Shown piece by piece: positions 2,651 to 25,806 of a DNA stretch of 34,334 bases. Location of the stretch: assembly GCA_030692925.1 (NCBI GenBank), contig JAUYBY010000030.1, positions 1-34,334 of the forward strand. Direction: 5' to 3'. Position numbers and translations under genes: made by a program. This stretch comes from Candidatus Zixiibacteriota bacterium (GTDB lineage: Bacteria; Zixibacteria; MSB-5A5; RBG-16-43-9). Every line of letters begins with the position of its first letter. Position 1 is the stretch's first letter. The notes under the pieces are model-generated. The model was given only the letters and a program-made list of their open reading frames with translations, was not told where the DNA came from and did not search any database.

Positions 2651-4531
2651 ATGAGACTTTACATAAGGCTTTTAAAATTCATAAGACCACACCTGAAATC
2701 TCTTCTGGGGGCTGTCCTGTTTATGATACTTTTCGCCGGGATGAGCGGCTTTTCTCTTACTATGGTGATTCCATTTACCAAGATGATTTTCTCCGATAAC
2801 GGATCCGTAGGATATGAGAAGAGTTCAACCTCTGCTGATACGAGCGAAAGCCTGCAGCAGAAGTCTTCGGCAGGTGGAGAAAGTTTGGTAGTTTTGGTTC
2901 CTGGAAAACTAAAACAGCAGTTCGATTCCTGGCTTAAAGGAAAAGATAAAACAGATAGTCTTAAGCGGTTATGTATCTTCATCTTAGTTATATTCTTTTT
3001 AAAGAATTTATTCTGGTATCTGGAGAACTATCTTATGGTTATCGTTCAGGAAGGTGTGGTAAAAGATTTGAGAGATAGACTCTATTCTCATTATCACCTT
3101 TTGCCTCTGGAATATTTTCACGGAAAGAAGACCGGGGTATTGATCTCCAGGGTGACTAACGATGTAAGTCTGGTAAAGAATGCGGTCTCCTCAGGATTTG
3201 TCGGAGGATTAAACCAGTTTTTTTTGGCGATCGTTTATCTTTTTTTGGTAATCTGGGCGAGCTGGAAATTGACCCTGATTGCGCTTCTGCTTTTCCCTCC
3301 CAGTATCTTTATAATCACCAAAGTGGGGAAGAGACTACGCTCAAAAAGCGTTTTAGCCCAGCAGAAGATGGGAAGCATAACTTCAGTTTTACAGGAGACA
3401 GTTTCAGGGATCAAGGTCGTCAAGGCTTTTGCTATGGAGGGGTTTGAGCTGAAGAAGTTTTTCAATTATACCCGGGATTATTTCAAGACGATGGTGCGGT
3501 TAACCAGAGTCGGCTCTTTGGCACCGCCGTTGACTGAGTTTTTGGGAGTGGTGGCTGGAGTTCTGATCCTCTGGTTCGGAGGAAGAGCTATCTTAGCTGG
3601 TGGAGGCCTGACCCCGGACCGGTTCTTCCTTTTTCTTATAGCGATGTTCTCTTTGATGCAGCCTTTGAAGATTTTAAGCCACGTGAATATCGATATTCAG
3701 CAGGGCTTGGCTGCTGCGGCAAGAATTTTTGAAGTTCTTGATACCCAGCCTAAGATCGAAAGCCCTGAGGATGGGGTCAAAATCGATAGTCTCAGACAAG
3801 GAGTGAAGTTCAAAAATGTATCATTCAGATATAATAGCAAGAAAGTAGCGCTGGAGAAAATAGATCTAGAGGTAAAATCCGGAGAAATAGTTGCGCTGGT
3901 TGGTCCTTCCGGTGCTGGCAAGTCCACTTTAGTTGACCTGCTCCCCCGCTTTTATGACCCAAATGAAGGGGTAATCGAGATAGACGGTGTAGACTTGAGA
4001 AGAATGAACTTGAACTCTTTGCGAAACCTGATGGGGATTGTTACTCAGGAGACCATACTCTTTAATGACACGGTCTGGAATAATATCGCCTACGGAGATG
4101 AGAAGGCTACTTCTGAAAAAGTGAATGAAGTGGCTAAAATGGCTAATGCTTATGATTTCATTCAGAACCTGCCAGAGGGATACAATACCATAATCGGGGA
4201 TAGAGGAGTCAAGCTTTCCGGTGGCGAGAGGCAGAGGATTTCCATCGCCCGTGCTTTGTATAAAAATCCTTCAATTCTTATTTTCGATGAAGCCACCTCC
4301 GCTCTGGATTCAGAATCAGAGCTACTTGTGCAGGAGGCAATCGACCGGTTGATGAAAAACCGCACTACTTTTGTGATTGCGCATCGACTTTCCACCATTC
4401 AAAACGCAGATAAGATCGTGGTGATAGATGAGGGAAGGATAGTTCAGACCGGAAAGCACAAAGATCTGGTCCAGCAGGAGGGGTTGTATAAGAAGCTTTA
4501 TGAGATGCAGTTTAAATTCAATGACGAATGA
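2651..4531 (+). CDS. MsbA-like ABC exporter (membrane and ATPase domains fused)
   Basis: 626 aa. A type I ABC exporter half-transporter, expected to work as a homodimer in the inner membrane. Residues about 1-340 hold the six-helix membrane domain. Residues about 385-620 are the nucleotide-binding domain: Walker A GPSGAGKST at 418-426, signature LSGGE at 522-526, Walker B ending in D546-E547 (LIFDEATSALD) and an H-loop in AHRLST near 578. The MsbA family flips lipid A-core; lying among LPS glycosyltransferases, that is the likeliest role, but multidrug or other lipid exporters look alike. Compared with about 580 aa for E. coli MsbA it has an extra polar segment of about 50 residues between helices 1 and 2 (about 50-105). 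The stop codon lies inside a heptamer array. Confidence 0.85.
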   Translation: MRLYIRLLKFIRPHLKSLLGAVLFMILFAGMSGFSLTMVIPFTKMIFSDNGSVGYEKSSTSADTSESLQQKSSAGGESLVVLVPGKLKQQFDSWLKGKDKTDSLKRLCIFILVIFFLKNLFWYLENYLMVIVQEGVVKDLRDRLYSHYHLLPLEYFHGKKTGVLISRVTNDVSLVKNAVSSGFVGGLNQFFLAIVYLFLVIWASWKLTLIALLLFPPSIFIITKVGKRLRSKSVLAQQKMGSITSVLQETVSGIKVVKAFAMEGFELKKFFNYTRDYFKTMVRLTRVGSLAPPLTEFLGVVAGVLILWFGGRAILAGGGLTPDRFFLFLIAMFSLMQPLKILSHVNIDIQQGLAAAARIFEVLDTQPKIESPEDGVKIDSLRQGVKFKNVSFRYNSKKVALEKIDLEVKSGEIVALVGPSGAGKSTLVDLLPRFYDPNEGVIEIDGVDLRRMNLNSLRNLMGIVTQETILFNDTVWNNIAYGDEKATSEKVNEVAKMANAYDFIQNLPEGYNTIIGDRGVKLSGGERQRISIARALYKNPSILIFDEATSALDSESELLVQEAIDRLMKNRTTFVIAHRLSTIQNADKIVVIDEGRIVQTGKHKDLVQQEGLYKKLYEMQFKFNDE

Positions 4532-14086: not shown

Positions 14087-14094
14087 CATTAGTG

Positions 14095-14490
14095 GTAGAA
14101 CAGACGTTCCTGTCTGTTCCTTATGGTCAGAGAGCGAAGCCTGGCGTCCTACGGACGGGCTGGCTCGTAGCCACAAGAATGTCTGACCTACCAGAACGAT
14201 CTTTTGTAGCGGAAACCTTCCCTACGAATCCGTCTAACGGACAGGTTTCCATGTTTTTAAAAATGGAAGGCTAAAGCCTTCCTCTACATAAGGACGTTTG
14301 GACACACATCGCATGCGTCTATCCTTTTGGCACCCTTAAAAGGTCGCTATTTCACTGTAGGGACAGCCCTTCCTTCGACTATGCTCAGGACGGTGAGCCT
14401 GTCGAACCGTGTGGCTGTCCGCATCAGGGTTCGGACAGGGACCACCGCCTTTGGCGGGATTTCGCATCGCTCAACAAGCCCTGTCCCTAC
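14095..14490. repeat. REP tract with several apex insertions
   Basis: The gap 13997-14828 has no convincing conserved gene. 14095-14118: GTAG, AACAGAC / GTCTGTT. 14125-14192: GGTCAG / CTGACC, CTAC, with an apex insert containing GGCTACG... and GCCAGGCTTCGCTCT (minus-strand reading); the same insert core sits in the same stem at 19356-19401. 14206-14250: GTAG, GGAAACCT / AGGTTTCC with a 24-nt insert. 14265-14287: GGAAGGCT / AGCCTTCC, CTAC. 14357-14420: GTAG, GGACAGCC / GGCTGTCC, with an insert whose own ends are TTCGAC (14374-14379) and GTCGAA (14401-14406). 14433-14490: GGACAGGG / CCCTGTCC, CTAC, with the ATTTCGC...CTCAACAAG insert. Open frames here are repeat sequence. Confidence 0.75.
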
Positions 14491-14509
14491 ACAAAATGCC
14501 AAAAAATGG

Positions 14510-14538
14510 TTGACTTAAGACCGGTTAATAATTAGATT
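14510..14538 (+). promoter_or_regulatory. Possible promoter about 300 nt upstream of the aminotransferase
   Basis: TTGACT at 14510-14515 and TAGATT at 14533-14538 with a 17-nt spacer, in the only repeat-free part of this gap (14491-14700). It could drive the aminotransferase with a long leader, or the short frame at 14565. Confidence 0.3.
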
Positions 14539-14564
14539 AGTGAAAATCGTAACCAGGTCTCTAT

Positions 14565-14636
14565 ATGATCAGAATGAAAATTATCAAACCTTTAAAAGAG
14601 ACTCTCCACCGCATCTACCTCAAGGGGATGACTTAA
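14565..14636 (+). other. Possible 23-codon small ORF
   Basis: ATG at 14565 to TAA at 14634-14636 encodes a 23-residue basic peptide beginning MIRMKIIKPLKETLHRIY. It lies 27 nt after the possible promoter at 14510 and outside any repeat. There is no good Shine-Dalgarno (only an AGG about 9 nt upstream), no homology that I recognise and no second copy. It may be a leader peptide or chance. Confidence 0.15.
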
Positions 14637-14700
14637 ATTTCACCTCATTCAAACTCTTTCGTTTTAAGGAGTAGTATAAAAAAACTTAGCATCTAGAAAT

Positions 14701-14793
14701 GTAGCGTCCCGCAAGATGTGGGACGTAAGGGACCTCTCCCTAACCCTCTCCTAAAAGGAGAGGGGAAAAGATGATCCCTGACGCTAACAAGAA
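14701..14793 (+). repeat. Composite REP tract, second full-length copy
   Basis: GTAG, CGTCCC / GGGACG (14701-14725), then CCCTCTCCT / AGGAGAGGG (14744-14764), then an end CCCTGACGCTAAC. Same order of parts as 2463-2586 but without the inner ATCCCGCA stem. It serves as the intact reference for the tract broken at 4663. Confidence 0.7.
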
Positions 14794-14828
14794 TATGATT
14801 TTTAAAATGTTTACTGAAAGGAAATAAA

Positions 14829-16175
14829 ATGGTTAACAAAAAAATGCCTCATATAGGCACAAAACTTCCAGGTCCCAAGAGCAAAAAGCTCATAAATAAA
14901 GATGAAAAATTCGTCTCCCAATCTTATACCAGAGCTTACCCGGCAGTGATCGACCATGCTAAAGGAGCTTATATTTTCGATTCGGATGGAAATTCATACA
15001 TCGATTTTCACGCTGGAATCGGAGTCTGCTGCACTGGTAACTGTCATCCAGAAATAGTAGCAGTCGTCAAAAAGCAGGCTGAAAAAGCGATTCATATTGC
15101 CAGCGCAGATTTCTATCACCCATTGGTCGGAAAGCTGGCAGAGAAATTGGCCCAGATCACCCCAGGAACTAAAGAGAAAAGAGTTTTCTTTGGCAATTCA
15201 GGCACTGAGGCGGTCGAGTGCGCCTTGAAATTAGCCCGGTATAATAAAAGAAAGCCCAGGATGATTGCCTTTATCGGAGCGTTTCACGGCAGAACCATGG
15301 GCTCTTTATCTTTGACCTGCAGTAAAATCACCCAGAGAAAATATTTTGCTCCGATGCTGCCTGAAGTCACTCACGTTCCTTATGCCTATTGCTACCGGTG
15401 TCCATTTAATTTAGAATATGGCAGTTGCGATATCGCCTGCGTTAAATTTATCGATGAGGTCATTCTGCAGAAGGTTGCACCAGCAGAGGATGTGGCAGCC
15501 ATATTCGTGGAGGCGATTCAGGGAGAAGGCGGGTATATCGTGCCTCCAGTAGAATTTCACCCGAGGTTGAAAAAAGTCGCAGAGAAATATGGCATCTATT
15601 ACGTTGTGGATGAGGTTCAGTCGGGAATGGGAAGGACTGGCAGGATGTTTGCCATCGAACACTGGGGTGTTGTGCCTGACATTATCACAGTAGCTAAGGC
15701 TTTAGCCTCAGGTATGCCTATTGGAGCCTGCATCGCGCCGAAGAAGCTTATGTCCTGGGTGCCAGGTGCTCATTCCACTACCTTTGGAGGTAACCCGATA
15801 GCTTGTGCCGCGGCACTCAAAACCATCGAGCTATTGGAAAATGGTTTGATGAAAAATGCCGAGAAGATGGGGAAATATATTATGCCTCGCCTGAAGAAGA
15901 TGTGGGAGGATTACGACATAATCGGAGACGTGCGGGGTAAAGGGCTGATGATCGGCATAGAATTTGTCAAGGATAAAAAGAGCAAGAAACCCGCGGCTGA
16001 TTATGCCAACGAGGTTGAGCAGCAGTGCTTCAGAAACGGGCTGATGCTTTTGACCTGCGGGCCGAACGGTGTCAGGTTTATTCCGCCTCTGATTATCGAT
16101 GAGGGTATCGCAGACAAGGCTCTGAAGATTTTTGAGAAGGTGGTAAAAAATATCGCTGGAAGAAAGAAAAGATAG
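14829..16175 (+). CDS. Class III pyridoxal-phosphate aminotransferase (acetylornithine/4-aminobutyrate type)
   Basis: 448 aa, fold type I PLP enzyme. Phosphate-binding NSGTEA at 123-128; [12 protein letters not shown] at 152-163; D261 and Q264 in [13 protein letters not shown] contact PLP; K290 in [13 protein letters not shown] forms the Schiff base; [15 protein letters not shown] is the family's second phosphate segment. It resembles the archaeal-type acetylornithine/4-aminobutyrate/amino-acid-racemase group rather than classical ArgD. C188, C191, C200 and C204 ([18 protein letters not shown]) form a Cys cluster that I recall from that group and that classical enzymes lack. Substrate cannot be fixed: GABA, ornithine or lysine derivatives are possible, as is racemase activity. 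Neighbours (sucCD) would suit succinate-forming GABA catabolism. Confidence 0.88.
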
Positions 16176-16235
16176 TTTGAGGAAAGAAGTAATTGATAGG
16201 GAGCGAACATATATTCTCTAAATGATGTGTAGCGC

Positions 16236-16306
16236 GTAGGGGCGGTCGATAAAAGCCTTACGATCCTACGGAGGCTTAGCTCCCCGGAGGGACTTTATGT
16301 CCGCCC
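16236..16306 (+). repeat. REP-like palindrome with large apex insertion
   Basis: GTAG, GGGCGG (16240-16245) pairs with CCGCCC (16301-16306). The 55-nt apex contains TCGATAAAAGCCTTACG followed by a small GGAGGCTTAGCTCC palindrome. The same GATAAA.GCCTTACG insert interrupts another REP type at 22139-22209, and a shorter form lies in the element at 17791. Confidence 0.65.
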
Positions 16307-16317
16307 GAAGTCATTAT

Positions 16318-16418
16318 TGTCATTCTGAGTCCCCGCAGGGGACGAAGAATCTCGTTCAAAGTCATTTTTGACAGATTCTTCGGTCGTCGCGGCAAATGCG
16401 GACTCCCTCAGAATGACA
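16318..16418. repeat. Terminal-inverted-repeat element, copy 1
   Basis: Begins TGTCATTCTGAG and ends CTCAGAATGACA: a perfect 12-bp terminal inverted repeat spanning 101 bp. Inside, GACGAAGAATCT and AGATTCTTCG also pair, so the transcript would fold into one long hairpin. It has no coding capacity. The TGTCATTCTGAG...GAAGAATCT type is familiar from many unrelated bacterial genomes, from memory. Confidence 0.75.
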
Positions 16419-16436
16419 GAAGATGAACTGCCTATA

Positions 16437-16503
16437 TGTCATTCTGAGTCCGCCGAAGGCGAGACGAAGAATCTTTAGATGCTTCGCTTCGCTCAGCATG
16501 ACA
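16437..16503 (+). repeat. Terminal-inverted-repeat element, copy 2
   Basis: TGTCATTCTGAG ... CTCAGCATGACA (one mismatch), 67 bp, with GACGAAGAATCT and TAGATGCTTCGCTTCG inside. Its right half differs from copy 1 but is shared with the copies at 17791 and 18162. Confidence 0.75.
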
Positions 16504-16592
16504 ACGGTCGAAAGCAAAAATATGACTACTGGAAGACGCGTAGGGGTGGAGCTTGACTCCACCCTCAGTCAAATTAAGAACCGGAGCATGGT

Positions 16593-17780
16593 GTGAGATT
16601 ATACGAATTTGAGGCAAAAAAGCTTTTCTCTAAAGCCGGGATTCCGATTCCTCAAGGAGAATTAGTCAAATCTCCTGAGGATGCAAAAGCTTTTGCCGAA
16701 AAATTAGGCAAACCTGTGGTCCTCAAAGCTCAAATCCTTTCCGGAGGAAGAGGAAAGGCTGGCGGGATTAAGTTCGTTCAAAATCCTTCAGAAGCTGAAA
16801 GAAAAGTATCCGAGCTTCTCTCCCTGAAAATCAAAGGTTTTCCGGTTGAGATGGTTCTGGCAGAAGAGAAAGTCGAGCTTGACAAGGAGCTTTATCTCGG
16901 CGGGACTATCGACAGGGTGAATTATAAACTGGTTATCATTGCCTGCACAGAAGGCGGGATGGAAATTGAGGATGTGGCAAAGAAGTCTCCTGAAAAGGTC
17001 AAGAAACTTAATCTGGATATCGATGAAAAGCTTTATAATTTTCAGGCTCAAGGATTAGCTAAATGGCTGGGTGTGAAAGGAGACCAGATAAGGAATGTGG
17101 GGAGCATCATCTCCACTCTGTTCAAAGTTTTCAAAAGCTATGATGCTAAATTGGTGGAGATTAATCCGCTGGTTCTGACTAAAGAGGGAAAATATATAGC
17201 CTGCGATGCCCGGATGAGTGTGGATGACGATGCTTTGTTCCGGCATAAGGAGCTTTCCGAGATGGGAATTGAGAAAAGGCACGAAGAAGGGGAGATGACC
17301 GAAAGGGAGAAAAAAGCAAGGGAATGGGGAATCCCTTATTTAGATCTGGATGGGAACATAGGGATGTTTCCAGGTGGTGCGGGTTTTGGAATCATGGGGA
17401 ATGATTTCATTCACTATTTTGGCGGCAAGCCTGCCAATTTTATGGACTCAGGCGGAGGTCCCACTCCTGAAAGGTTAGCTAAGATGTTAATCCTTTTAGA
17501 TGAAAACCCTCAGGTCAAGGCTATTTTCGGGGCAAGGTTCGGGGGAATTTCCCGGTGTGATGATTTTGCCAAAGGTGTGGTGATCTTTTTAAAAGAGCAT
17601 GGTCTTTCCAAGCCAATGGTCTTAAGAATGACCGGAAATATGTGGAAAGAAGGTCTGGAGATTTTCGAGCAGGCAAAAAAGGAAAATCAGGAGATCTTCA
17701 GGAACATCGAGATTCACGGGATTGAAACCCCGATTGAGGAGATTGCCAAAAGAGTGGTTGAGCTCGCAAAGAACAACTAA
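16593..17780 (+). CDS. sucC: Succinyl-CoA synthetase beta subunit (ADP/GDP-forming)
   Basis: 395 aa with the normal SucC length and order: ATP-grasp domain from the N-terminus (RLYEFEAKKLFSKAGIPIP), VLKAQILSGGRGKAGGIK near 43-60, EINPLV near 190, then the CoA-ligase domain with GNIGMFPGGAGFGIMGND, NFMDSGGGPTPERL and FGGISRCDDFAKGVV. With SucD it interconverts succinyl-CoA and succinate with nucleotide phosphorylation in the TCA cycle. The start is GTG at 16593, chosen because GGAG (16583-16586) lies 6 nt upstream and MRLYEFEAK is the family N-terminus; the nearby ATG at 16588 is out of frame. Unusually, sucD does not follow directly: 1.7 kb with repeats and a dehydrogenase gene intervenes. 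Confidence 0.93.
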   Translation: MRLYEFEAKKLFSKAGIPIPQGELVKSPEDAKAFAEKLGKPVVLKAQILSGGRGKAGGIKFVQNPSEAERKVSELLSLKIKGFPVEMVLAEEKVELDKELYLGGTIDRVNYKLVIIACTEGGMEIEDVAKKSPEKVKKLNLDIDEKLYNFQAQGLAKWLGVKGDQIRNVGSIISTLFKVFKSYDAKLVEINPLVLTKEGKYIACDARMSVDDDALFRHKELSEMGIEKRHEEGEMTEREKKAREWGIPYLDLDGNIGMFPGGAGFGIMGNDFIHYFGGKPANFMDSGGGPTPERLAKMLILLDENPQVKAIFGARFGGISRCDDFAKGVVIFLKEHGLSKPMVLRMTGNMWKEGLEIFEQAKKENQEIFRNIEIHGIETPIEEIAKRVVELAKNN

Positions 17781-17790
17781 GTGACTTGAC

Positions 17791-17892
17791 TGTCATTCTG
17801 AGTCCTCAGGCCGTTAAAAGCCTTACGGCTCGTAGAGACGAAGAATCTATCTTGCAGAGGACTGCAGATGCTTCGCTGCGCTCAGCATGACA
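17791..17892 (+). repeat. Terminal-inverted-repeat element, copy 3
   Basis: TGTCATTCTGAG (17791-17802) ... CTCAGCATGACA (17881-17892), 102 bp. Compared with the copies at 16437 and 18162 it carries an extra segment with GTTAAAAGCCTTACGG and CGTAGAG, a relative of the insert inside the palindrome at 16236. Confidence 0.7.
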
Positions 17893-17906
17893 AGCATATA
17901 GATCGC

Positions 17907-18105
17907 GTAGGGGCGGGGCTTGTTGAGCTTAGCGAAATCCCGCACCTGCGGGGTCCCCGCCCGCAAATGAGACGTGGCGTCGGGCTTTACGCCCGACGAG
18001 GGGTTTCGTAGTGCGACCCTTTAGGGTCGCAAGGAAACATGTAGCGGAGGTCTTCAGACCTCCAGGGGTTGGGAAGATCGTAGCGTCCGACGTTTCTGTC
18101 GGACG
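17907..18105. repeat. REP cluster between sucC and the dehydrogenase
   Basis: 17907-17962: GTAG, GGGCGGGG / CCCCGCCC with apex TTGTTGAGCTTAGCGAAATC, the insert also found at 1452 and 14433. 17974-17998: GTGG (variant foot), CGTCGGGC / GCCCGACG. 18008-18030: GTAG, T, GCGACCCT / AGGGTCGC. 18041-18063: GTAG, C, GGAGGTCT / AGACCTCC. 18080-18105: GTAG, CGTCCGAC / GTCGGACG. Five different stems in 200 bp share one foot. The gap 17781-18272 contains no gene. Confidence 0.8.
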
Positions 18106-18161
18106 GGGCGGAACACCGTTGGGTTAGGGGACCCTATAGGCACAAAGTCAGAAAATGTATC

Positions 18162-18236
18162 TGTCATTCTGAGTCCGCAGGACGAAGAATCTATCCTTCC
18201 TATGGTTTTAGATGCTTCGCTACGCTCAGCATGACA
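18162..18236 (+). repeat. Terminal-inverted-repeat element, copy 4
   Basis: TGTCATTCTGAG (18162-18173) ... CTCAGCATGACA (18225-18236), 75 bp, the simplest form: a GTCCGCAGGAC mini-palindrome, GAAGAATCTATC and TAGATGCTTCGC. Confidence 0.75.
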
Positions 18237-18272
18237 AATAGCCAAAAGTAGACAAAGTTGTAATTATAATAT

Positions 18273-19265
18273 ATGCAGCAGAAGCTTAAAATAATCGTTG
18301 CTTTAACTGAAAGGGAAAAGGATTTCCAGGATTTTTCTGAAGCTATATCATCATCTCCTCAATTAATGAACAGGTTCGGCCTGATCCGCTCTCAGAATAA
18401 AGAACATCTTAAGGAATTACTTCAGGAAACTGATATTCTCATCTCTTTTTCAATTACTCCGGAGAACTTCCAGAGAGCAAAAAATCTCAAATGGATTCAT
18501 CTGGCAGTTGCGGGAGTGGATGAATCGATTTTTCCCGAGCTTCTAAAAAGCAAAGTAATAATTACTGCCTGCAAAGGTATCCACAGCCATACTATTTCAG
18601 AGCATATCCTGGGGATGATTCTGGCTTTTGCTAAAGGGCTTCATTTAAGCACCCTCAGACAAATTCGTAAGAATTGGGCTTTTAATGAAGTGATGAAGCA
18701 AAGGTTTGAATTGAAAGGAAAGACCTTAGGGATTATCGGCCTGGGCGGGATTGGATTGGAACTGGCAAGGAAGAGTAAATGTCTTGGAATGCAGGTAATC
18801 GGGATGAAAAACAGATTGAAAAAGGGTGAAAAGATTAGATCTGTTGACAGAATTATCCCCAAGGAGAAGTTGCCTGAGCTTTTGAGCCTATCCGATTTTG
18901 TGGCTTTGACTCTTCCTTTGACTGATGAGACTTTCCATTTAATCGGAGAAAAAGAGTTAGCTCAAATGAAAAATTCAGCTTATCTTATCAATACTTCCAG
19001 AGGGAAGATTATCGATGAGAAAGCTTTAATTGATGCCCTGGAGAACAAAAGGATTGCTGGCGCAGGTTTGGATGTTTTCGAGGGGGAACCACTAAGCCCG
19101 AACAGCAGATTGTATGATTTAGAGAATGTGATAATCACTCCGCATGTGGCTGGAACGATGACAGATTACTTCCAAAAAGTTGCCCGGATTTTTAAGGAGA
19201 ATTTAAGGAGGTATTTAAGCGGCAGGAAAATGATGAATCTGGTGGATAAGAAGTTAGGATATTAA
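18273..19265 (+). CDS. D-isomer-specific 2-hydroxyacid dehydrogenase
   Basis: 330 aa NAD(P)-dependent enzyme. Rossmann motif GLGGIG at 156-161 (TLGIIGLGGIGLELARK). Catalytic triad R243 (INTSRGKI), E272 (DVFEGEP) and H291 (ITPHVAG). The substrate domain is formed by about 1-105 and the extreme C-terminus. It reduces or oxidises a D-2-hydroxyacid such as glyoxylate/hydroxypyruvate, phosphoglycerate or a D-lactate type; specificity is not readable. Length and lack of an ACT domain argue against long SerA. A perfect TATAAT (18265-18270) sits just before the ATG with no Shine-Dalgarno and no matching -35 box, so the true start may be downstream (M32) or the message leaderless. It separates sucC from sucD. 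Confidence 0.85.
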   Translation: MQQKLKIIVALTEREKDFQDFSEAISSSPQLMNRFGLIRSQNKEHLKELLQETDILISFSITPENFQRAKNLKWIHLAVAGVDESIFPELLKSKVIITACKGIHSHTISEHILGMILAFAKGLHLSTLRQIRKNWAFNEVMKQRFELKGKTLGIIGLGGIGLELARKSKCLGMQVIGMKNRLKKGEKIRSVDRIIPKEKLPELLSLSDFVALTLPLTDETFHLIGEKELAQMKNSAYLINTSRGKIIDEKALIDALENKRIAGAGLDVFEGEPLSPNSRLYDLENVIITPHVAGTMTDYFQKVARIFKENLRRYLSGRKMMNLVDKKLGY

Positions 19266-19271
19266 AAGAAA

Positions 19272-19306
19272 ATGTCGAATGACGGATGACGAATAACTGA
19301 TAAAAG
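19272..19306 (+). repeat. Heptamer tandem array (ATGACNR)
   Basis: Five units in register right after the dehydrogenase stop: ATGTCGA, ATGACGG, ATGACGA, ATAACTG, ATAAAAG. Near-identical to the array at 4622-4656. Confidence 0.75.
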
Positions 19307-19321
19307 AAAAGGATATGAGAT

Positions 19322-19434
19322 GTAGCGTAGGGCTTTATGCCCGACGTAATAAAGGGTAGGTCAGACATTCTTGTGGCTACGCCAGGCTTCGCTCTCTGAC
19401 CACGGAGATGAACAGACAAAAATGTCTGTTCTAC
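19322..19434. repeat. REP cluster with an inverted GGTCAGACA / AACAGACA pair
   Basis: 19322-19346: GTAG, CGTAGGGC / GCCCGACG (two mismatches to the type sequence). 19356-19401: GTAG overlapping GGTCAG / CTGACC, interrupted after GTCAGACATTCTTGT by the GGCTACGCCAGGCTTCGCTCT insert. 19411-19434: AACAGACA / TGTCTGTT, CTAC. The last two form a BIME-like pair; the same pair occurs in reverse orientation at 14095-14192 and uninterrupted at 22223-22290. Confidence 0.75.
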
Positions 19435-19494
19435 CGAGGAAATAGTCTCAGGTTTTATATCCGGCGAACATAGCAAAAAAATACAAAGGTAAAA

Positions 19495-22066: not shown

Positions 22067-22344
22067 GTAGCGTGACCCTTTTCCTATTGCGGATCCGGAG
22101 CAAGCCCCCGTAGGGTAGGACAGGGTCGCATGACAAATGTAGTCGATAAATGCCTTACGACGCCTACGGCGGGCATGGCTCCCCGTAGGGCGGAGGTCTT
22201 TAGACCTCCATTTACTGAGAAGGTAGGTCAGACATTCGTGTCTGACCAAGTGTGTACTGTCAGGAGAACAGACAAGAATGTCTGTTCTACCAGATGGAGG
22301 GTTGATCCTCCTCTGGCGGAAAGACCTTGATAGTTTTCCGCTAC
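22067..22344. repeat. REP tract with two interrupted palindromes
   Basis: The gap between the HD gene and the GT39-like gene contains only repeats. 22067-22129: GTAG, GTGACCCT / AGGGTCGC split by about 42 nt. 22139-22209: GTAG, then an insert with TCGATAAATGCCTTACG ending GTAGGG, then GGAGGTCT / AGACCTCC. 22223-22247: GTAG overlapping GGTCAGACA / TGTCTGACC. 22267-22290: AACAGACA / TGTCTGTT, CTAC. 22317-22344: CGGAAA / TTTTCCG, CTAC. The first and last parts look like the two halves of a BIME into which the middle pair was placed, as at 25709-25806. Confidence 0.75.
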
Positions 22345-25661: not shown

Positions 25662-25806
25662 GTAGGGCAAGGCCTCAAGGTCTTGAGACTTCAGCCTTGC
25701 AGAATCATGTAGCGGAGGTCTTCAGACCTCCATTGATTGGAAAGGTAGGTCAGACATTCCTGTCTGACCAATAGAATAAATGTGGAAGGCTGAAGCCTTC
25801 CGCTAC
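25662..25806. repeat. REP cluster: one REP nested between the halves of a BIME
   Basis: 25662-25700: GTAG, GCAAGGC / GCCTTGC enclosing CTCAAG / CTTGAG. 25709-25731: GTAG, C, GGAGGTCT / AGACCTCC. 25745-25769: GTAG overlapping GGTCAGACA / TGTCTGACC. 25784-25806: GGAAGGCT / AGCCTTCC, G, CTAC. The second and fourth elements are the usual outward-facing pair (as at 20363-20426), and the third type sits in its linker. No gene between 25608 and 25890. Confidence 0.85.

Follow-up and report, generated by a model that had tools for sequence, protein, structure and literature searches.

Repetitive extragenic palindromes (REPs) in a 34,334-nt contig of a Candidatus Zixiibacteriota bacterium (GenBank assembly GCA_030692925.1, contig JAUYBY010000030.1; hereafter the window) carry short inserts at or close to the tips of their hairpins. 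Here we describe two of these inserts, E1 and E2, which appear from their sequence to be nested, non-autonomous micro-modules built from mini-hairpins such as TCC-GTA-GGA. They hold recurrent positions, are present in one species and absent from another with the flanks intact, leave no target duplication, are restricted to a single genus whose members encode REP-associated tyrosine transposases (RAYTs), and are themselves found nested. Our favoured explanation, which we hold to be probable rather than assured, is that nested micro-elements resembling the small dispersed repeats (SDRs) of cyanobacteria insert near the tips of REP hairpins and that the loaded copies then spread.

The window genome (G000; 2.41 Mb in 112 contigs, about 91% complete) was compared with two congeners, G001 and G002 (the latter Zixibacteria RBG_16_43_9), over the stretches of sequence around the repeats; all three are fragmented draft assemblies. 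We use H1 for the GTAG-tagged hairpin, H2 for its inverted partner, and E1, E2 and E3 for inserted modules.

Hairpin hosts and their tip modules

The palindromes appear, as judged from sequence, to be REP hairpins of the REPIN/BIME (REP doublet forming hairpins/bacterial interspersed mosaic element) system, of the kind mobilised by RAYT transposases of the Y1, HUH type. H1 reads GGTAG-GTCAGACA-TTCN-TGTCTGACC, a GTAG tag followed by what folding gives as a perfect 9-bp hairpin with the 4-nt loop TTCN, and H2 (GAACAGACA-AGAA-TGTCTGTTC-TACC) usually lies inverted on its 3' side, the unit of the two spanning GGTAG...CTACC in the REPIN/BIME layout. Across the whole 2.41-Mb genome GGTCAGACA has 75 sites, against 15 for the reversed control, and the hairpin pattern matched 64 times in G000, 67 times in G001 and 40 times in G002, with no match for the reversed control and with H1/H2 pairs present. 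We find what is expected of REPs: hairpins of 20-40 nt with GTAG on their 5' side, many extragenic copies, inverted pairs, and a probable cognate RAYT gene flanked by REPs (on contig C67 of G002). The two palindromes that the initial annotation of the window took to be uninterrupted, near 22223 and 25745, are indeed simple hairpins of this kind (22222-22247 and 25744-25769), and other GTAG hairpin families are also present in the window genome.

E2 has the form TCC-N3-8-GGATCCRTAGGR (20-22 nt), with the core GGATCCGTAGGA. Its exact 13-mer CGGATCCGTAGGA occurs 29 times in G000, 24 times in G001 and 26 times in G002, and 0-2 times per genome in 130 other genomes of the phylum; the core is confined to one genus, and the 22-nt pattern was absent from the viral contigs searched. 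When the module was removed and a hairpin of at least 7 bp was required around the junction, 49 of 82 unique copies lay within a hairpin, 40 of them in the loop itself. The initial annotation had named a spread of inserts along the stem as the outcome that would speak against a preference for the loop; for E2, a module independent of the one it had described, 47 of the 49 lie within 2 nt of the loop. Nearby random points fell within hairpins of at least 7 bp in 7% of cases, and 45% of those points were within 2 nt of the loop. The first collection of E2 copies had been selected in part on the right flank AATG and was redone using the bare 13-nt core, whereupon 46 of 79 copies were placed at a tip. 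As this flank-unbiased set favoured the near-loop hairpin when several fitted, the distances given above come from the 82-copy set, to which no such preference applied. In the window genome alone, 19 of 29 copies are at a tip. Even with each host stem counted once, P is about 0.001.

The preference of E2 for hairpin tips, strong but not absolute, holds irrespective of host sequence. Its host stems comprise at least 10 unrelated sequences, mostly GTAG-tagged, and include GCGACCC, GTAAACC with GGAAACC, GAACAGAC, CGCAAGC, CCTCTCCTT, CCCTCTCC, CGTTGCC, CGTCCTCA, CGTCCGG, GGGGCGTTCAA and AACCCCACCTTG; some H2 partners hold the module in the loop itself, as CATT[TCCTACGGATCCGTCATAGGA]CTTG. Two mini-hairpins are predicted within E2, which on its own is not more stable than shuffled sequences. 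In the copy at 22082-22120 an extra 18 nt are lodged at the apex of the second of these mini-hairpins.

E1 was found in 32 H1 hairpins (17 in G000, nine in G001 and six in G002) and, among the 78 genomes searched, only in these three. It is 20-42 nt long and carries no transposase gene. The junction is identical in 32 of 32 copies, ...TTCNTGT^CTGACC or TG^TCTGACC (an ambiguity of 1 nt), and by the fold of H1 it lies 2-3 nt down the 3' arm, outside the loop, where the lower 7-bp stem GGTCAGA/TCTGACC still folds with E1 present. With up to two mismatches GGCTTCGCTCTCTGACC gave 15 matches in the window genome against none for the control, all 15 within an H1 hairpin. Such searches with insert and junction, with zero control matches, rule out chance similarity. 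The interiors vary: besides a short GGCTACG-CCAGG type there are a long one containing AGCCAGCCCGYCCGTAGGRCG, one containing GGCTACGTGGCTACGGGCATACGCCACAGG, and further variants. The stems of the mini-hairpins vary compensatorily (GCCC-GTA-GGGC, GTCC-GTA-GGAC, and GCCC-TTC-GGGC in G001). We considered E1 as a unit freely mobile among many hosts and rejected the idea, E1 proper being confined to H1 and found in no other hairpin family; matches to its pattern outside Zixibacteria are chance matches without a hairpin.

The initial annotation had reported an insert in the copy at 19356-19401 and the same insert ends, with additional sequence between them, in the minus-strand copy at 14125-14192. 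Both descriptions are accurate (GGCTACGCCAGGCTTCGCTCT at 19375-19395; 21 nt, AGCCAGCCCGTCCGTAGGACG, at 14145-14165), as is the picture of a second element within the palindrome and a third within the second, the third varying among copies. Placement of the insert precisely at the hairpin loop holds genome-wide as placement in the tip region, but the position of E1 is a little off the loop, 2-3 nt down the 3' arm. Likewise the idea that the apex is a target choice gains support from the tips occupied by E2, from switches at orthologous loci and from empty sites, but two window copies with the same junction are insufficient: a single founder could have given rise to both loaded copies, so they do not show that the site was targeted more than once.

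Two further observations concern the inner modules. A third module, E3 (CCGATAAAAGCCTTACGG, a mini-hairpin with a TAC loop, then GGCTTYGCTCC), recurs inside other hairpins, in the window at 22130-22195 and at loci L325, L328, L334, L348, L326 and L335; its inner stem switches as a unit (GGC-TAC-GCC, TCC-TAC-GGA, GAC-TAC-GTC), and it has GGCTACGCC-GGCTTYGCTC in common with E1. At locus L251 (contig C118 of G001) a relative of H1, GGTGGCTCAGACATCCCTG, holds an E2-like segment, TCCTACGGACCCGTTTCTAGGG, at the TG^TCTGA junction of E1, so that two different modules use that arm position.

Occupied and empty orthologous sites

Clean orthologous empty sites of E2 were found in two host families and one gene. 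At one hairpin G000 reads GTGTAAACCTT[TCCTACGGATCCGCTTCTCGGA]TAGGTTTACC and G002 reads GTGTAAACCTTTAGGTTTACC, the 22-nt module occupying the middle of a perfect palindrome and leaving no duplication (core of the site: GTAAACCTT[22 nt]TAGGTTTAC against GTAAACCTTTAGGTTTAC). At an H2 site G001 is loaded with E2, and G000 and G002 are empty, with 70 nt of identical surroundings. The gene carries 21 nt of E2 in frame in G002 and lacks them in G000. For the GGGGCGTTCAA host, the one orthologous comparison tried gave no spanning match, and candidate pairs such as L299/L313 and L269/L246 were discarded as alignment shifts in which both species are occupied.

Orthologous H1 loci were paired through their flanking sequence (groups 4, 10, 13 and 17 by a single flank or a looser flank match), which gave 14 sites where one species has the extended form and another the simple one. 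Five three-way sites (groups 3, 6, 7, 8 and 14) have exactly one extended species: G000 at two of them, G001 at one and G002 at two. The extended state is a singleton in five of five, spread over three species, a pattern which favours repeated gain in place over loss. Locus-specific bases are kept, CTGACAGCAAG in group 7 and CTGACTGAACAG in group 8, with CATCC on the left of group 7 in G001 and G002. Differences in the outer arms are not raised in extended/simple pairs, which argues that whole hairpins were not swapped.

The H1 copies of the window take part in such switches. The hairpin at 14125..14192 (group 11) has an ortholog with a different E1 interior in G001 and a simple one in G002, and that at 19355..19401 (group 12) has in G002 a longer E1 interior within the same flanks. 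The simple hairpin at 25744..25769 (group 13) has an apparent ortholog on contig C12 of G002, at a contig end, that shares 133 nt of identical 5' flank and holds a 20-nt E1 at the same junction. In groups 12 and 19 both species carry E1 with differing interiors, so the inner layer, too, changes in place.

Table 1. Positions in the window of REP hairpins and of the modules within them.
Feature	Positions	Strand	Remark
In-frame 21-nt E2 module, adding SDNGSVG	2792..2812	+	inside ABC-transporter gene (ORF 2651-4531)
H2 partner GGTAGAACAGAC...GTCTGTTC	14094..14119	+	inverted relative to H1 at 14125; completes REPIN/BIME pair
H1 with long form of E1	14125..14192	-	GTAG-tagged REP hairpin
E1 insert, 42 nt, GGCTACG...GCTCT	14131..14172	-	aligned against simple copies
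Third-level module AGCCAGCCCGTCCGTAGGACG, 21 nt, inside E1	14145..14165	-	mini-hairpin GTCC-GTA-GGAC
Different GTAG hairpin GTAG-C-GGAAACCTT / CAGGTTTCC, E2 at tip	14206..14250	+	14 nt from H1 copy
E2 module TCCGTTAGACGGATTCGTAGGG	14220..14241	-	tip of GTAG hairpin 14206..14250
H1 with short form of E1	19355..19401	+	GTAG-tagged REP hairpin
E1 insert, 21 nt, GGCTACGCCAGGCTTCGCTCT	19375..19395	+	within H1 at 19355
H2 partner hairpin	19410..19435	-	pairs with H1 at 19355
GTAG hairpin GCGTGACCCTT / AGGGTCGC, loaded tip	22067..22129	+	
E2 module interrupted by nested segment	22082..22120	+	tip of GTAG hairpin 22067..22129
18-nt nested segment GGAGCAAGCCCCCGTAGG	22097-22114		between GGATCC and GTAGGA
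Uninterrupted H1 GGTAGGTCAGACATTC[G/C]TGTCTGACC	22222..22247	+	simple (empty) REP hairpin
H2 partner hairpin	22266..22291	-	pairs with H1 at 22222
Uninterrupted H1 GGTAGGTCAGACATTC[G/C]TGTCTGACC	25744..25769	+	simple REP hairpin

The E2 copy within the ABC-transporter gene (Table 1) is also found in the G001 and G002 orthologs and appears to be an old insertion turned into coding sequence. Elsewhere in the window, a repeated hairpin GTCATTCTGAG...CGAAGAATCT at 16319-16460, 17792-17846 and 18163-18190 has a tip occupied by one or another short segment that is itself a hairpin (TCCGCAGGA, TCCCCGCAGGGGA and an E3-like piece). The intergenic regions are filled with several more families of GTAG hairpin (GTAGCGGAGGTCTTCAGACCTCC, GTAGCGGAAGGCTTCAGCCTTCC), at 18040, 20362, 22186, 25708, 28044, 28859, 7140, 25782 and 29033, and the GTAGCGGAGGTCTTCAGACCTCC family flanks a RAYT gene on contig C49. 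No tRNA was found in the window.

Alternative explanations and a possible mechanism

Several observations weigh against insertion near the hairpin tip. About 40% of E2 copies lie outside any recognisable hairpin, including the in-frame copies in genes, and one copy lies 6 bp down the stem (locus L235 compared with its G000 ortholog). Same-family copies share junction and orientation, as is expected from the copying of one loaded founder, so that the number of independent events is nearer to one per host stem (about 10-13) than to one per copy. With founder events that few, survival bias may also have shaped the distribution: a REP would be ruined by a stem insert, which would leave only those loaded at the tip able to amplify further. 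The direction of change, towards gain, is inferred by parsimony. Of 19 extended/simple pairs, 12 differ in the loop base beside the E1 junction, as do 9 of 27 simple/simple pairs (P = 0.07); this hints that a few loop bases change along with E1, for which exchange of a short patch would also account. Finally, no module-specific enzyme was identified in the genomes examined, and a simple scheme of the IS200/IS605 type is disfavoured because the E2 junctions have no common target tetranucleotide (left flanks include ACAAG, CCTTT, ACCTG, ACCTA, CTGAAG and GTTCAA).

Short-patch exchange is a possibility that we take seriously while regarding it as rather doubtful. A simple REP would acquire the tip of a loaded one by gene conversion or template switching, with no de novo insertion, between partners whose shared sequence is about 20 bp at one end and 6-7 bp at the opposite end. 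The confinement of E1 to H1, at one junction and in one orientation, is what this would produce, as are the recurrence of its interior variants within species and the tendency of the adjoining loop base to change with the insert. It does not account for the occurrence of the same E2 in genes and at the tips of 10 or more stems without shared sequence. The changed patch is moreover very short: the outer 3' arm bases CTGACAGC and CTGACTGA are kept in groups 7 and 8, so that it is shorter than classical homologous conversion needs. Expansion of subfamilies alone, in which a REP with an insert acquired once is copied as a unit by RAYT and the shared position reflects common descent, is consistent with RAYTs in all three species and with a junction and an orientation that do not vary inside any one host family; we think it unlikely, for a REP loaded in one species can be empty at the orthologous site, between identical flanks, of another. 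The insert has therefore changed state in place, which contradicts subfamily expansion as the sole explanation.

That the loaded form is ancestral, and that simple hairpins arose by precise deletion, would be compatible with there being no module-carrying outgroup to polarise the sites. Yet the singleton pattern at the five three-way loci argues against it, deletion would have to restore a perfect palindrome each time with at most 1 nt of microhomology, and G003, a genome of the next genus, has H1/H2 REPs without E1 and without the exact E2 core; loss in place of gain is accordingly quite improbable. Selection lengthening the tips of functional RNA or terminator structures could explain the compensatory mini-hairpin stems (GCCC/GGGC against GTCC/GGAC), but at a given site one close relative may have the insert and another lack it, the same module occurs in unrelated hairpins and in coding sequence, and the lack of any Rfam match in the window rules out a known RNA family there. 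We regard this last explanation as very improbable indeed.

Insertion of micro-elements near REP tips might proceed as follows. A REP would become single-stranded, on the lagging-strand template or in an extruded cruciform, and fold, exposing its loop as a single strand. A single-strand transferase such as a RAYT, or template switching by a polymerase, could then add the module at the exposed tip, which would enter at or within 2-3 nt of the tip without target duplication and leave the host hairpin foldable. Loaded hairpins might subsequently spread among the copies of their REP family, either copied by a RAYT or through exchange of short patches. RAYTs are the obvious candidate transferases because they are HUH enzymes acting on folded single strands, and for some of them hairpin loops matter for recognition (PMC8266576).

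Y1-type transposase genes number five in the window genome, five in G001 and ten in G002. The four examined exceed the cut-off of the NCBI REP-associated tyrosine transposase model NF047646, and one examined protein matches the solved TnpA-REP chain 4er8. The 152-aa RAYT on contig C67 of G002, above that cut-off, is placed exactly between H1/H2 pairs, which makes it the probable cognate transposase of H1/H2. In the window genome, three RAYTs lie between GTAG hairpins of their own, distinct from H1/H2, and no RAYT was seen beside H1/H2 in G000 itself, a genome about 91% complete. More speculatively, E1 and E2 could represent gene-less mobile DNA of about 21 nt that targets the shape of a hairpin and not its sequence, is moved in trans by RAYT-type transposases, and nests so that REPs grow outward layer by layer; we offer this tentatively.

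Relation to known elements

SDRs of Nostoc and its relatives, described by Elhai et al. in 2008 (Genome Res. 18:1484; cited in PMC4390886), are said to be dispersed, folded units of 21-27 nt with nested insertions and a lineage-restricted distribution, for which RNA intermediates have reportedly been proposed. In behaviour our modules seem most like these micro-elements. E2 (20-22 nt; 24-29 exact-core copies per congener) is similar in size, dispersal, folding, nesting and lineage restriction, and its clean empty sites indicate recent mobility; the phylum is different, and the likeness is one of behaviour, with no relation in sequence claimed. SDR5 splits the HIP1 palindrome after its third base (PMC4390886), an entry into one octamer, whereas E2 enters at least 10 different long REP stems at the tip.

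The host hairpins are ordinary REPs: the GTAG tag, the hairpin, the inverted pairs and a RAYT flanked by its own REPs all correspond to the REP/REPIN/BIME and RAYT systems as set out in sections of PMC3116915, PMC2817692 and PMC8266576. The tip modules, however, are not REPs, lacking a foot tag with stem, and exchangeable tip inserts are not described in those sections. Palindromic repeats within palindromes are likewise seen with A. variabilis GTAG-15, T. roseum GTAG-23 and H. neapolitanus CGTC-1, whose REP dimers have inserted in other palindromes (PMC3733652). There the REP is the insert, whereas here it is the host of a 20-45 nt insert, in many host families and with orthologous empty sites. 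Insertion sequences such as IS1397, ISKpn1, ISPpu9/10, ISPa11 and ISRm22 also use REPs as a precise target at one fixed position (PMC1525189), but they bring their own transposase and several make target duplications; E1 and E2 have neither gene nor duplication, and inserts of 20-42 nt encode no transposase of the kind that defines an insertion sequence. Nor does E2 show the conserved short target beside the insertion seen with non-autonomous IS200/IS605 elements. Palindromic GC clusters of mitochondria, double-hairpin elements such as GC42 (PMC4478555), share with our modules their tiny hairpins, presence or absence at homologous sites and mergers, but belong to organelle genomes, make short target duplications and have no REP host and no RAYT.

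What seems new is that a single 21-nt module occupies hairpin tips in many REP families unrelated to one another, that empty sites exist at orthologous loci, and that the nesting is layered. At about 20 nt, micro-elements are among the smallest mobile DNA proposed, and here they meet the question of how REP families originate, diversify and spread. Filled and empty orthologous sites in three related species make the mover, the landing place and the choice between sequence and shape as the target open to test. Tip inserts would be a concrete way for REP hairpins to alter their loops without losing their stems.

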